The translations under genes and the position numbers were made by a program. This document shows, piece after piece, positions 19,841 through 26,530 of a DNA stretch of 32,241 bases. Origin of the DNA: an uncultured Bacteroidales bacterium (GTDB lineage: Bacteria > Bacteroidota > Bacteroidia > Bacteroidales > Paludibacteraceae); contig CAIYTJ010000713.1 of the NCBI GenBank assembly GCA_903929065.1, positions 1 through 32,241 on the forward strand, given 5' to 3'. The notes below the pieces were generated by a model. It was not told the DNA's origin. It worked only from the letters and a program-made list of their open reading frames with translations, and made no database searches. Each line of letters begins with the position of its first letter. Position 1 is the first letter of the stretch.

Positions 19841-19871
19841 TTTGAAATTTCAATTAGTTGGCTTATCTTTG
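19841..19871 (+). promoter_or_regulatory. Bacteroidota-type primary sigma promoter for the ilv leader/operon
   Basis: TTTG at 19841-19844, 19-nt spacer, TATCTTTG at 19864-19871: matches TTTG-N19-TAnnTTTG. Confidence 0.8.
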
Positions 19872-19890
19872 CAGCCGAAATACAAACAAA

Positions 19891-19956
19891 ATGAATTCTC
19901 TAAGCTTTAATTCAATTCTATTCCTCGTCGTGCTTTTGGTCCAAAATCAGAAGTGA
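19891..19956 (+). CDS. Ilv operon leader peptide MNSLSFNSILFLVVLLVQNQK
   Basis: 22-codon ORF ATG AAT TCT CTA AGC TTT AAT TCA ATT CTA TTC CTC GTC GTG CTT TTG GTC CAA AAT CAG AAG TGA; 9/21 residues are Ile/Leu/Val; lies between promoter and terminator upstream of ilvD. Confidence 0.85.
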   Translation: MNSLSFNSILFLVVLLVQNQK

Positions 19957-20006
19957 GATGGTTGCGTTGTATTAAATGCATTGAACATACAAAAAACCTT
20001 TCTCAC
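19953..20006 (+). promoter_or_regulatory. Predicted antiterminator of the ilv attenuator
   Basis: GTGAG-AT-GGTT-GCG-TTGT (19953-19970) can pair with ACAA-AA-AACC-TTT-CTCAC (19989-20006), sequestering the 5' arm of the terminator. Confidence 0.7.
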
Positions 20007-20027
20007 CATAACGGAGAAAGGTTTTTT
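19991..20027 (+). terminator. Intrinsic terminator of the ilv attenuator
   Basis: AAAAAACCTTTCTC (19991-20004), 9-nt loop, GAGAAAGGTTTTTT (20014-20027): perfect 14-bp arms ending in U6, 34 nt before the ilvD ATG. Confidence 0.88.
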
Positions 20028-20061
20028 AATTTAAACAAGGTGAAGTAATAAAATAAAAAAT

Positions 20062-21894
20062 ATGAAACGGGAATTACGCAGCATTACAAGTACTGGTGGC
20101 CGTAGAATGGCCGGAGCTCGATCGCTTTGGCGTGCCAATGGAATGACCGACCAGCAAATGGGAAAGCCCATTATCGCCATTGTAAATTCGTTTACACAAT
20201 TTGTACCCGGCCATGCACATTTGCATCTGATAGGTCAGAAAGTAAAAGCAGAAATAGAAAAACTCGGTTGTTTTGCAGCTGAATTTAACACCATTGCCAT
20301 TGACGATGGAATTGCCATGGGGCATGATGGGATGTTATATTCCCTGCCATCCCGCGATTTAATTGCGGATAGTGTGGAATTCATGGTGAACGCTCACAAA
20401 GCTGATGCCATGGTGTGTATCAGCAATTGCGATAAAATTACACCGGGAATGCTTATTGCATCCATGCGGTTAAATATCCCGACCATTTTCGTTTCAGGTG
20501 GACCGATGGAGGCCGGCGAACTGGACGGAAAACATTTGGATTTAGTGGATGCCATGGTTCAATCGGCCGATGAAAGCGTTTCCGATGATCAGGTAAAAAG
20601 GATTGAGAATGCCGCATGTCCGACCTGTGGTTCTTGTTCGGGAATGTTTACCGCCAATTCGATGAATTGTCTGAATGAAGCAATCGGTCTGGCTTTGCCC
20701 GGTAACGGAACCATAGTTGCCACACATGCCAATCGTACTCAACTTTTTGTTGATGCAGCCAAACTGATTGTCGAGAATGCCAATAAATATTATTTCGAAG
20801 GTGATGACTCTGTGTTGCCACGTTCAATCGCCACTCGCGAAGCTTTTATGAACGCCATGACATTGGATATTGCCATGGGCGGTTCGACCAATACAGTTCT
20901 TCATATTCTGGCAATTGCTCACGAAGCTGAAGTTGAATTCACCATGGATGATATTGATGCGCTTTCACGCAAAACACCTTGTTTGTGTAAGGTGGCACCG
21001 AATTCACAGAAATATCATATTGAAGATGTAAACCGTGCCGGTGGAATTTTGGGTATTTTAGCTGAACTCAGCAAAGGCGGACTTCTGGATAAATCAGTTA
21101 AACGGGCTGATGGCCTGACATTGGGAGAAGCCATTGAGAAATTTGATATTACAAGTCCGTTTGTTATTCCGGTGGCCATTGAAAAATATAAAAGTGCACC
21201 AGCTCATATATTCAATCTGGTAATGGGTTCGCAACATACTCAATATCCTGAATTGGACGGCGACCGAATCAACGGCTGTATCCGTGATATAGAGCATGCT
21301 TACACCAAGGATGGTGGACTTGGAATTTTAAAAGGAAACATTGCACAGGATGGTTGTGTTATTAAAACCGCAGGTGTTGATGAAAGTATATGGAAATTTA
21401 CCGGACCGGCTAAGGTTTTCACTTCTCAGGATACTGCTTGCGAAGGAATTTTACGGGGCGATGTGGTTTCGGGTGATGTGGTGGTTATCACGCATGAAGG
21501 ACCAAAAGGCGGTCCCGGTATGCAGGAAATGCTTTATCCGACGTCGTATATCAAATCAAAACATCTTGGTGCAGCATGTGCATTAATTACCGATGGACGT
21601 TTTTCGGGTGGAACTTCCGGTTTGTCAATCGGTCACGTTTCACCGGAAGCTGCTGCAGGTGGAAATATCGGACTAATTCACGATGGTGATATTATTGAAA
21701 TTGATATTCCAAGTCGTTCAATAAATGTGAAAGTAAGCGATGCCGAATTGCAGATTCGTCGCGAAGCAGAATTGGCTCGTGGAAAGGACGCATTTAAACC
21801 AAAAGACAGAAATCGTATCGTTTCACAGGCCTTGCGTGCTTATGCGAGCATGGTAAGTTCGGCCGATAAAGGTGCTGTGAGAATGGTAGATTGA
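20062..21894 (+). CDS. ilvD: Dihydroxy-acid dehydratase
   Basis: 610 aa; [44 protein letters not shown]; first gene of BCAA operon. Confidence 0.97.
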
Positions 21895-21971: not shown

Positions 21972-23672
21972 ATGGAAACAAAAACTAAAATAACAGGAGC
22001 TCATGCATTTATGCAGGCTTTGGTGGCGGAAGGAGTTGATACTATTTTCGGTTATCCGGGCGGTGCAATTATGCCCGTTTTCGATGCATTATACGATTAC
22101 GACAAACATTTAAATCATATTCTAACCCGTCACGAACAAGGTGCAACACATGCAGCACAAGGTTATGCGCGTGTTTCGGGAAAAGTAGGCGTTTGTCTGG
22201 TGACTTCCGGTCCGGCAGCAACCAATGCCATTACCGGTGTTGCGGATGCAATGCTTGATAGCACTCCGTTGGTTGTTATTACCGGACAAGTTGGCGCTGC
22301 GTTGTTGGGAACGGATGCTTTTCAGGAAATTGATGTGGTTGGTATTACTCAACCAATTACCAAATGGGCGTACCAGATTCGTCGTTCGGAAGATATAGCC
22401 TGGGCTGTTGCCCGCGCATTTTATATTGCACGCAGCGGCCGTCCAGGTCCTGTGGTGCTTGATTTTGCCAAAAATGCACAAATTCAGGAAGTCGACTTCG
22501 ACTACAAACCTTGTACTTTTATCCGCAGCTATTTACCTGTTCCGGAAGTTCAACCGAATCAGATTGAAGCGGCTGCTGCATTAATCAATCAGGCAAAAAA
22601 ACCGTTTGCGTTAGTTGGACAAGGCGTTATTTTGTCCAATGCTGAAAACGAATTGAAAGCATTTTTGGAAAAAGCCGATATTCCTGCTGCCTGGACATTG
22701 CTTGGTGCATCAGCTATGTCGTCGGATTTTCCGTTGAATAAAGGATTTCTGGGAATGCACGGAAACGTAGGACCCAATATGAAAACCAACGAATGTGATG
22801 TGCTTATTGCCATCGGAATGCGTTTTGACGACCGCGTTACCGGTGACTTGAAAACTTATGCCAAACAAGCCAAAATCATTCATTTGGATATAGATATTGC
22901 CGAAATAGGTAAAAATGTAATTCCAGATGCGCCGGTATTGGGTTCGGCAAAGGATACATTACCAGCTTTAACTGCAAAACTTAATCCGGCAAAACATACT
23001 GAATGGATTGCATCTTTTGCGGAATATGAAAAACTGGAATTGGAAAAAGTTATCCAACGCGAAGTTTATCCGGAATCGGGTGAAATAACGATGGGCGAAG
23101 TAATTCGCAGAGTATCGGATGCAACGTTTGACAATGCAGTGATTGTAACTGATGTTGGACAGAACCAAATGCTGGCTGCACGTTATTCAAAATATTCACA
23201 AACACGAAGTCTGGTTACTTCGGGCGGCTTGGGAACGATGGGATTCGGGCTTCCGGCTGCTATGGGCGCTAAAATGGGTGCTCCGGAACGTACTGTTTGT
23301 ACATTCTGCGGCGATGGCGGTTTCCAAATGACTATTCAGGAACTGGGAACCATTATGCAGGAGCAAATTGGTGTAAAAATGATAATTCTCAACAATCATT
23401 ACCTCGGAATGGTACGCCAGTGGCAGGAAATGTTCTTTGACGAACGGTATTCATTCACCAATATGCAAAATCCCGATTTCGTGGCAATTGCCAAAGCCTA
23501 TCGCATTGATGGAAGTGAGGTCCATAAACGAGAAGAACTTGATGCAGCTATTGCGGATATGTTGAAAGACGACAAACCGTATTTGCTGGTTGTAAATGTA
23601 GAGAAAAAAGGGATGGTTTTCCCAATGGTTCCTGCCGGTGCATGTGTTACAAACATTTTATTAGGAGATTAA
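21972..23672 (+). CDS. ilvB: Acetolactate synthase large subunit
   Basis: VDTIFGYPGGAIMPVFDALYD, GVCLVTSGPAATNAITGVADAMLDSTPLVVITGQV; ThDP-binding GDGGFQM. Confidence 0.96.
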   Translation: METKTKITGAHAFMQALVAEGVDTIFGYPGGAIMPVFDALYDYDKHLNHILTRHEQGATHAAQGYARVSGKVGVCLVTSGPAATNAITGVADAMLDSTPLVVITGQVGAALLGTDAFQEIDVVGITQPITKWAYQIRRSEDIAWAVARAFYIARSGRPGPVVLDFAKNAQIQEVDFDYKPCTFIRSYLPVPEVQPNQIEAAAALINQAKKPFALVGQGVILSNAENELKAFLEKADIPAAWTLLGASAMSSDFPLNKGFLGMHGNVGPNMKTNECDVLIAIGMRFDDRVTGDLKTYAKQAKIIHLDIDIAEIGKNVIPDAPVLGSAKDTLPALTAKLNPAKHTEWIASFAEYEKLELEKVIQREVYPESGEITMGEVIRRVSDATFDNAVIVTDVGQNQMLAARYSKYSQTRSLVTSGGLGTMGFGLPAAMGAKMGAPERTVCTFCGDGGFQMTIQELGTIMQEQIGVKMIILNNHYLGMVRQWQEMFFDERYSFTNMQNPDFVAIAKAYRIDGSEVHKREELDAAIADMLKDDKPYLLVVNVEKKGMVFPMVPAGACVTNILLGD

Positions 23673-23675
23673 ATT

Positions 23676-24224
23676 ATGGAAAATACATTATACACGATAA
23701 CGGTTTTTTCAGAAAATACGGTCGGTTTGCTTGGTCAGATAACGATTATTTTTACTCGTCGTAATTTGAATATCGAAACACTTTCGGTTTCGCCGTCAGC
23801 TATAAAAGGCATTCATAAGTTTACCATCACGTTACTTTCTACTGAAGAAGTGGTTTCGAAAATGGTAAAACAGATTGACAAACGCGTCGATATTCTGAAA
23901 GCCTATTACAACACGGATGAAGATTTGGTCTTTCAGGAAATTGCCTTGTATAAAGTGGCAACCGATAAGCTTTTCGAGAAAGGTTCGGTAGAAGAATTAA
24001 TCCGCAAATACCATGTTCGTGTGTTGGAAATGAATGCCGACTATGTGGTTTTTCAAAAAGCCGGGCATTATGAAGAAACGCAGCAAATGTTCGAAGAACT
24101 GAAGGAAACCGTTGGTGTTTTGCAGTTTATCCGTTCGGGACGTGTGGCAATTACCCGTTCGAAAGTAGAGCGATTGAGCGACATGCTTGAATCGATTCAG
24201 GAAAAATTCGAAAAAAATCAGTAA
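23676..24224 (+). CDS. ilvN: Acetolactate synthase small (regulatory, ACT) subunit
   Basis: ACT domain start YTITVFSENTVGLLGQITIIFTRRNLNIETLSVSPS; adjacent to ilvB. Confidence 0.93.
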   Translation: MENTLYTITVFSENTVGLLGQITIIFTRRNLNIETLSVSPSAIKGIHKFTITLLSTEEVVSKMVKQIDKRVDILKAYYNTDEDLVFQEIALYKVATDKLFEKGSVEELIRKYHVRVLEMNADYVVFQKAGHYEETQQMFEELKETVGVLQFIRSGRVAITRSKVERLSDMLESIQEKFEKNQ

Positions 24225-24253
24225 TTTTGCAGCCTGAAAAAATACTGAACTAC

Positions 24254-24976
24254 ATGTCATACAAAAAGTCTTATCCTTTCCGGATTCAACCGCAAGATGT
24301 TGATTTCCAATTTAAGGTAACCATGGCAGCGTTGGGGAATATTCTCCTGACAACCGCCGGTTTTAATGCTGATGAGAACGGTTTTGGTATCCGGAGGTTG
24401 AATGAAATTGATTGCACGTGGGTGTTGACTCGGTTTGCGGTGGAAATGAAACGTTTCCCGGAGCAATACGAAGATATTTCGGTGGAAACATGGATTGAGG
24501 AGGTGGGACGTGCCAGCACGACCCGTAATTTTTGCATCCGTGATTCGAAAAATGAAATTATCGGAAATGCCTGTTCCGTTTGGGTGATGCTCGATATGAA
24601 AGCCCGACGGGCAAAGGATTTGCTGACGTTGGATGGCATTCATCAGTTTGCTTCGGGCGAAGCCGGATTAATTGAAAAACCAATGAAACTCGACACGGTT
24701 GATGGCGAAGATTATGACGGATTCAAAGTAAAATACAGCGATATCGACATTAACGGACACGTCAACACAATCAGTTATATTGAATGGATCAGCGATTGTT
24801 TTTCGCTGGACTGTTACCGGAAATGTGGAGTAAAACGCTTTGAGTTCAATTTTATGAATGAAATGCTTTACGATGATTTTGTTGAAATCGTAGGGAAACA
24901 ACACCGGCCGGGTGATTTTCGTTTCGAAATCATGAAAGAAGATAAAACAGCTTGCCGTGCAAGAGTAGTTTTTTGA
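24254..24976 (+). CDS. Acyl-ACP thioesterase family (hotdog) protein
   Basis: Double-hotdog pattern; WVLTRFAVEMKRFPEQYEDISVETWIEEVG, KVKYSDIDINGHVNTISYIEWI; start revised to MSYKKSYPF at 24254. Confidence 0.87.
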   Translation: MSYKKSYPFRIQPQDVDFQFKVTMAALGNILLTTAGFNADENGFGIRRLNEIDCTWVLTRFAVEMKRFPEQYEDISVETWIEEVGRASTTRNFCIRDSKNEIIGNACSVWVMLDMKARRAKDLLTLDGIHQFASGEAGLIEKPMKLDTVDGEDYDGFKVKYSDIDINGHVNTISYIEWISDCFSLDCYRKCGVKRFEFNFMNEMLYDDFVEIVGKQHRPGDFRFEIMKEDKTACRARVVF

Positions 24977-25051
24977 AAGAAAATAAATAGAATATCAAAT
25001 AAATTAATTCTCAGCAAACTAAAAGTGAGGTTGAGTTTAAAATCAAAGAAA

Positions 25052-26530
25052 ATGGCAAATTATTTCAGTTCACTTCCACATCGCCTGAAAGTTCAGGAGC
25101 TTGGAAAATGTGATTTTATGCAAAGCAGCGAATTCGCTGATGGAGTTAAGAAACTTGTTGGAAAGAAAATCGTGATTATCGGTTGCGGTGCGCAGGGATT
25201 GGCACAAGGCCAGAATATGCGCGACAGCGGCCTTGATGTGTCTTACGCGTTGCGTCAGGAAGCGATTGACAACAAACGTGCTTCGTATGTAAATGCTACC
25301 GAAAACGGTTTCAAGGTGGGTACTTTCGAAGAATTGGTTCCGACTGCTGACCTGGTGTCGAACCTTGCTCCGGACAAACAACACACTTCGGTGGTTAATG
25401 CAGTGGTTCCGTTTATGAAAAAAGGCGCTTGTCTTTCATATTCACACGGCTTCAATATTGTGGAAGAAGGAACTCAAATCCGCAAGGACATTACCGTGGT
25501 GATGATTGCTCCAAAATCGCCTGCCTCGGAAGTTCGTGCAGAGTATCTTCGCGGTTTCGGCGTTCCAACGTTGATTGCCGTTCACTCGGACAACAATCCT
25601 AACGGCGACGGACTGGAAATAGCCAAAGCCTATTGCGTGGGTACAGGTGGTCACAAGGCCGGTGTGTTGCTTTCGTCGTTCGTTGCCGAAGTAAAATCGG
25701 ATTTGATGGGCGAGCAAACCATTCTTTGCGGATTGTTGCAGACGGGTTCTATTCTTTCATTCAACAAAATGGTTGAAAAAGGAATTGACGCCGGATATGC
25801 TTCCAAACTGGTTCAATACGGTTGGGAAACGATTACCGAAGCGTTGAAAATCGGTGGTATCACCAACATGATGGACCGGTTGTCGAATCCCGCTAAGATT
25901 GAAGCATTCAAACTGGCAGCCGAATTGAAAGATATTATGCGTCCGTTGTTTATCAAACACATGGACGATATTTTGTCGGCTGAATTCTCGAAAACCATGA
26001 TGGAAGACTGGGCTGCCGGCGATAAAAACCTGTTGGCATGGCGTGCTGAAACCGGTGAAACTGCTTTCGAAAAAACTCCTGCCGGAAATGTTGAAATTTC
26101 CGAACAGGAATATTTCGATAATGCCGTGTTGATGGTTGCTTTCGTGAAATCGGGTGTGGAACTGGCTTACGAAACCATGACTTGCTCGGGCATTAAAAAC
26201 GAATCGGCTTACTACGAATCGTTGCACGAAACGCCGCTTATTGCCAATACCATTGCGCGCAAAAAATTATTTGAAATGAACCGGGTAATTTCCGATACCG
26301 CCGAATACGGTTGCTACCTGTTCGACCATGCTTGCAAACCGCTGTTGGCTGACTTTATGAAGAAAATCGATACTAATGTAATCGGTAAAAACTTCAATGC
26401 AGGCAAAGATGGCCACGTGGATAACTTCGAACTGGTAAAAGTAAACGCCGCTATCCGCAATCATTCCATCGAAATTTGTGGTGCCGAATTGCGTGCTGCC
26501 ATGACGGCAATGAAAAAGGTAGTAGAATAA
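25052..26530 (+). CDS. ilvC: Ketol-acid reductoisomerase, long (class II, E. coli-like) form
   Basis: [31 protein letters not shown]..., [27 protein letters not shown]; about 492 aa; start revised to ATG 25052. Confidence 0.95.

Follow-up and report, generated by a model that had tools for sequence, protein, structure and literature searches.

The window analysed here is a stretch of 32,241 nucleotides from an uncultured Bacteroidales bacterium of the family Paludibacteraceae (assembly GCA_903929065.1, contig CAIYTJ010000713.1). By profile search, its plus strand carries an operon for branched-chain amino acid (BCAA) biosynthesis with the gene order ilvD-ilvB-ilvN-(thioesterase-like)-ilvC. 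These genes encode dihydroxy-acid dehydratase (ilvD, 20062-21894; NF009103, 1059.7 bits), the large and the small subunit of acetolactate synthase (ilvB, 21972-23672; TIGR00118, 701.6 bits; and ilvN, 23676-24224; TIGR00119, 77.4 bits) and ketol-acid reductoisomerase (ilvC, 25025-26530; NF003557, 870 bits). The thioesterase-like gene (24227-24976), which sits inside the operon with ilvN on one side and ilvC on the other, displayed a weak match to TIGR00051 of 27.8 bits, below the cut-off. The upstream neighbour of the operon is the divergent gene dxs.

A first-pass annotation, made by reading the sequence, had placed a complete ribosome-mediated attenuator upstream of ilvD. The Bacteroidota-type promoter it described, TTTG-N19-TATCTTTG, is present on the plus strand at 19841-19871, with TTTG at 19841-19844, a spacer of 19 nt and TATCTTTG at 19864-19871. 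The motif recurs in relatives, where TAnnTTTG occurred at most 90 nt upstream of the ATG of a leader ORF in 63 of 68 cases, compared to 6% of shuffles, and mostly at a distance of 15–37 nt. As TAnnTTTG is located so near the leader ATG, the leader ORF probably begins near the 5' end of the transcript. In the window, this ORF (MNSLSFNSILFLVVLLVQNQK, 21 codons) occupies 19891-19956 of the plus strand, starting with ATG at 19891 and ending with a TGA stop codon at 19954-19956; it is an ATG-initiated, BCAA-rich short ORF that is conserved in relatives. Codons 9–17 (Ile9-Val17; 19915-19941) encode the previously noted run I-L-F-L-V-V-L-L-V and constitute the predicted window for ribosome stalling. 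In the best stretch of the leader, Ile, Leu and Val account for 8 of 10 residues, and an ATG-initiated short ORF with at least 8 of 10 such residues appeared in 1.1% of dinucleotide shuffles of the upstream region of the window. There is no evident Shine-Dalgarno sequence before the leader ATG, as had been pointed out. This absence is no departure from the expected, since mRNAs of Bacteroidota generally lack such a sequence.

At 19991-20027, as originally read, the leader ORF is followed by the perfect 14-bp stem of an intrinsic terminator (3:4), with 34 nt between it and the start of ilvD at 20062. The stem carries a T tract and is supported by both folding and covariation. Two further segments, supported by duplex z-scores and covariation, can form a competing helix (2:3; z = -2.8 in the window): region 2 (19952-19970), the 5' strand of the antiterminator, and region 3 (19988-20006), its 3' strand, which is also the 5' arm of the terminator. 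The complementarity of GTGAG..GGTT..TTGT with ACAA..AACC..CTCAC is found at 19953-19970/19989-20006, and the leader stop codon lies inside region 2. Antiterminator and terminator are mutually exclusive, as region 3 is common to both. When the segment from 19878 to 20061 was folded as a whole, it performed better than 200 shuffles (z = -3.6). One element of the first-pass annotation was wrong, namely the supposed lack of a 1:2 pause or protector hairpin. Both the minimum-energy and the centroid structure contain such a hairpin at 19926-19960, with an energy of -13.5 kcal/mol. The Leu-Val-Val-Leu-Leu-Val codons make up its 5' arm, which is paired to the last part of the leader ORF and the beginning of region 2. 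The device is therefore more classical than previously held, and the predicted layout is the complete 1:2/2:3/3:4 scheme as in enterobacteria.

We then performed a folding scan in which a model ribosome was moved along the leader. The RNA was taken to be free from 12 nt beyond the start of the A-site codon onwards, and the part left free before synthesis of region 4 was folded. Without a ribosome, or with one on codons 1–8, the 1:2 hairpin formed and 2:3 hardly did (0.4–1.9 expected pairs). With the ribosome on codons 9–18, 2:3 formed with 9.3–11.5 expected pairs, and from codon 19 to the stop it was blocked (0–3.4 expected pairs). In the scan, the antiterminator was thus freed only at the Ile/Leu/Val run plus one codon. 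That stalling frees the antiterminator and finishing the leader masks it, as had been proposed, is accordingly a prediction of the folding scan. If no ribosome were present, or if it were stuck in the first codons, 1:2 would form, region 3 would remain free and 3:4 would terminate transcription. Under scarcity of BCAA-tRNAs, a ribosome would stall on codons 9–17 and melt 1:2, so that 2:3 could form ahead of the synthesis of region 4, allowing RNA polymerase to proceed into ilvD. When BCAAs are plentiful, the ribosome would reach the stop codon inside region 2 and block 2:3, and the terminator would form. Counting against an attenuator, the equilibrium fold favoured the terminator over the antiterminator at every ribosome position; antitermination must therefore be kinetic. 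The same applies to classical attenuators.

ilvD and its upstream DNA were sampled from the family and genus of the window, plus named genomes, resulting in 139 upstream regions. A leader was defined as an ATG-started short ORF with at least 7 Ile, Leu or Val in 10 residues. Such an ORF was present in 76 of the 139 regions (55%), compared to 2.9% of dinucleotide shuffles and 2.9% of reverse strands; under a stricter limit of 8 in 10 residues, the values were 46% and 0.3% in shuffles. The remaining 45% of the sampled regions had no detectable leader, which counts against the attenuator reading. Most leaders of the genus share the ending ...VVLLLVxNQR or a close variant, and the named taxa with the device include Bacteroides, Phocaeicola, Tannerellaceae, Heminiphilus, Prolixibacteraceae, Marinifilaceae and Alistipes. 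ilvD proteins with 67–71% identity to that of the window also occur outside Bacteroidota, in records L102 and L113 and other records of Desulfobulbaceae and spirochaetes, two isolates among them. No leader was found in these Desulfobulbaceae or spirochaete records, which suggests that ilvD was transferred without its attenuator.

A T-tailed hairpin no more than 70 nt past the leader stop was observed in 68 of the 76 leader-bearing regions, and in most of these 68 the 5' arm of the terminator can pair at or near the end of the leader (median z of -3.0). This arrangement bears on the idea that the leader ORF mainly boosts translation of ilvD by reinitiation and that the hairpin is plain structure without regulatory termination. 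For many phyla, Bacteroidetes among them, it has been proposed that leader genes near structural genes enhance translation, with a distance peak at 11–14 bp (PMC4833913). The leader stop of the window, however, is 105 nt away from the ilvD start, far beyond this distance, and the two are separated by a conserved T-tailed terminator, so we consider reinitiation extremely improbable as the main function.

We determined covariation in 65 regions aligned with MAFFT by sequence only, using 300 shuffles per helix, which do not remove relatedness, and slid registers, which keep it, as a second control. In helix 2:3, 76.8% of the cells were paired, compared to 72.0% (sd 0.6) in shuffles and 44–55% in slid registers, and 44 cells were compensatory, compared to 20 in shuffles and 15–31 in slid registers. 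Helix 3:4 displayed 94.6% paired cells (89.2% in shuffles, 43–72% in slid registers) and 51 compensatory cells (8.3 in shuffles). None of the 300 shuffles reached the observed values for either helix. The core pairing is clearly replaced in relatives, for example by CAAGAGA/TCTCTTG, GGGAGA/TCTCCC or ATGAGAATGGT/ACCATTCTCA. Comparison across relatives revealed a conserved BCAA micro-ORF, and more compensatory changes in both exclusive helices than in shuffles. By a loose criterion, 63 of 68 relatives have region 2 paired with upstream sequence. Support for 1:2 across relatives was modest, as the leader segments barely beat shuffles (median z of -1.2), and this counts against the attenuator reading.

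Related leaders occur elsewhere in the same genome. Upstream of leuA (L141:1-123, G000:C38), a leader ending in GIIILLQNK at the contig edge is followed by a core, AGAAGTGAG ... GCCTTTCTCACT, that is nearly the same as the antiterminator/terminator core of ilvD; a full Leu/Ile leader, for example MNNNFLHILLLGIIILLQNK, precedes leuA in all 11 other congeners searched. Upstream of the gene for prephenate dehydratase (L167:1480-1625, G000:C728), the Phe/Tyr leader MVNRFFTYFYFYFYFKG comes with a terminator and an antiterminator (-18.5 kcal/mol) of its own, and this locus is a predicted pheA attenuator. No matching leader was found at the hisG, trpE and aspartokinase genes of this genome.

A covariance model built from ilvD leaders only matched in 53 of 248 Bacteroidota genomes. 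At about 21–22 of the 29 loci that were read, the leader was biased towards the amino acid of the downstream gene, which was identified by profile at six loci and the pheA locus and by eye at the others. Leader and pathway matched elsewhere in the phylum as Trp before trpE, Thr/Ile before aspartokinase, and Ile/Val before ilvD or the BCAA aminotransferase gene (ilvE). Trp-rich leaders such as FTWAWFWF and NWWWWNSV preceded trpE at L172, L178, L192 and L198, and Thr/Ile leaders preceded aspartokinase at L188 and L189. At L196 (minus strand, around 1501-1608), the leader MNPTPRTYIHHSHYYLQ lies before a gene that by eye is phenylalanine 4-hydroxylase-like; this is possibly a Tyr-sensing attenuator, or chance. 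The remaining hits among the 29 loci look like plain terminators. Similarly, the weaker hits in the genome of the window (C282, C265 and C718) had no amino-acid-biased leader or no downstream gene and the look of ordinary terminators. Such hits lend something to the notion that the ilvD hairpin, too, is a constitutive terminator, such as one that ends another transcript, beside an ORF that arose by chance, and exerts no regulation. Given that this terminator sits downstream of the operon's own promoter, and that both leader and antiterminator are found in relatives much more often than by chance, we assign this notion hardly any probability.

Searches of the window with Rfam, at gathering threshold and at a relaxed E-value, yielded no match beyond chance; Thr_leader (RF00506) scored 20.5 bits and Phe_leader (RF01859) 19.2 bits, both at chance level compared to a gathering threshold of 55. 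Mutually exclusive terminator and antiterminator helices are also typical of terminator-type riboswitches and protein-bound antiterminators, in which a metabolite or protein would be sensed directly and the short ORF would be incidental. The conserved part of the ilvD leader is, however, the BCAA-biased ORF, leaders switch to Phe/Tyr, Trp or Thr with the downstream pathway, and neither a conserved aptamer-like core outside the switch helices nor an Rfam match was found, making direct sensing very unlikely. The conserved leader, the covarying exclusive helices and the matched leuA and pheA leaders together provide strong comparative support for BCAA-leader attenuation as first proposed. We therefore conclude, with a probability of roughly 0.92, that a ribosome-mediated leader-peptide attenuator controls ilvDBN-ilvC by the supply of charged Ile, Leu and Val tRNAs; leader translation, ribosome-polymerase coupling, premature termination and the starvation response are steps that we infer.

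Attenuators of the leader-peptide type control ilvGMEDA, ilvBN and leuABCD in enterobacteria, and also trp, his, thr and phe operons. The device in the window is like these in its amino-acid-matched leader, 1:2 protector, 2:3 antiterminator, 3:4 terminator and the stop codon in region 2. It is unlike them in its Bacteroidota promoter, the lack of an evident Shine-Dalgarno sequence and a leader near the predicted 5' end, and no sequence relation to the enterobacterial leaders was found with Rfam models. A comparative survey by Lopatovskaya and colleagues from 2010, cited in PMC4833913, may already include such operons. The Bacteroid-trp motif (RF01692), whose name points to trp genes, is listed as a cis-regulatory RNA of Bacteroidetes (PMC2864571); it had no match above the cut-off in the window or the same genome, and the four trp loci named above stay below this cut-off as well. 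In Flavobacterium psychrophilum, leader-peptide candidates upstream of amino-acid operons have been put forward with clues from transcriptome structure (PMC9723704). They belong to the same phylum and share the proposed mechanism, and ilv is not named in the main text of that report (PMC9723704). For B. thetaiotaomicron, 5' UTRs containing short ORFs have been described (PMC7366714). A conserved upstream ORF regulates the ilvBNC operon of Corynebacterium, in whose mRNA the ilvB-II motif is described (PMC10272879); the likeness is a conserved regulatory ORF in an ilv leader, while the difference is that Corynebacterium belongs to the Actinobacteria and the operon is another (PMC10272879). Our literature search brought up no specific work on leaders of ilvD in Bacteroidetes. 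Thus, leader-peptide attenuation is classical and has already been suggested in Bacteroidota, and the ilvD device is a well-supported case where little has been described.

Two aspects remain of interest, namely how far the attenuator set extends and the coupling of ribosome and polymerase in Bacteroidota. With regard to the former, we tentatively propose, as a possibility that we regard as rather doubtful, that Bacteroidota possess a set of leader-peptide attenuators that extends across the phylum and is largely uncatalogued. These would have one layout across ilv, leu, phe, trp and thr operons, a partly common core (GTGAGA..GGTT / AACC.TTCTCAC) and leaders near the transcript start without Shine-Dalgarno sequences, and would have spread by duplication and exchange of control codons. 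As there is no Rfam family for these leaders and a 21-codon ORF is easy to overlook, their description fills an annotation gap. With regard to the latter, in leader-peptide attenuation the movements of ribosome and RNA polymerase must be closely timed to each other. That such a device is conserved and covaries argues that ribosome-polymerase coupling works in Bacteroidota despite their other promoters and general lack of Shine-Dalgarno sequences, and the ilvD leader would be a ready reporter for testing such coupling in this phylum.
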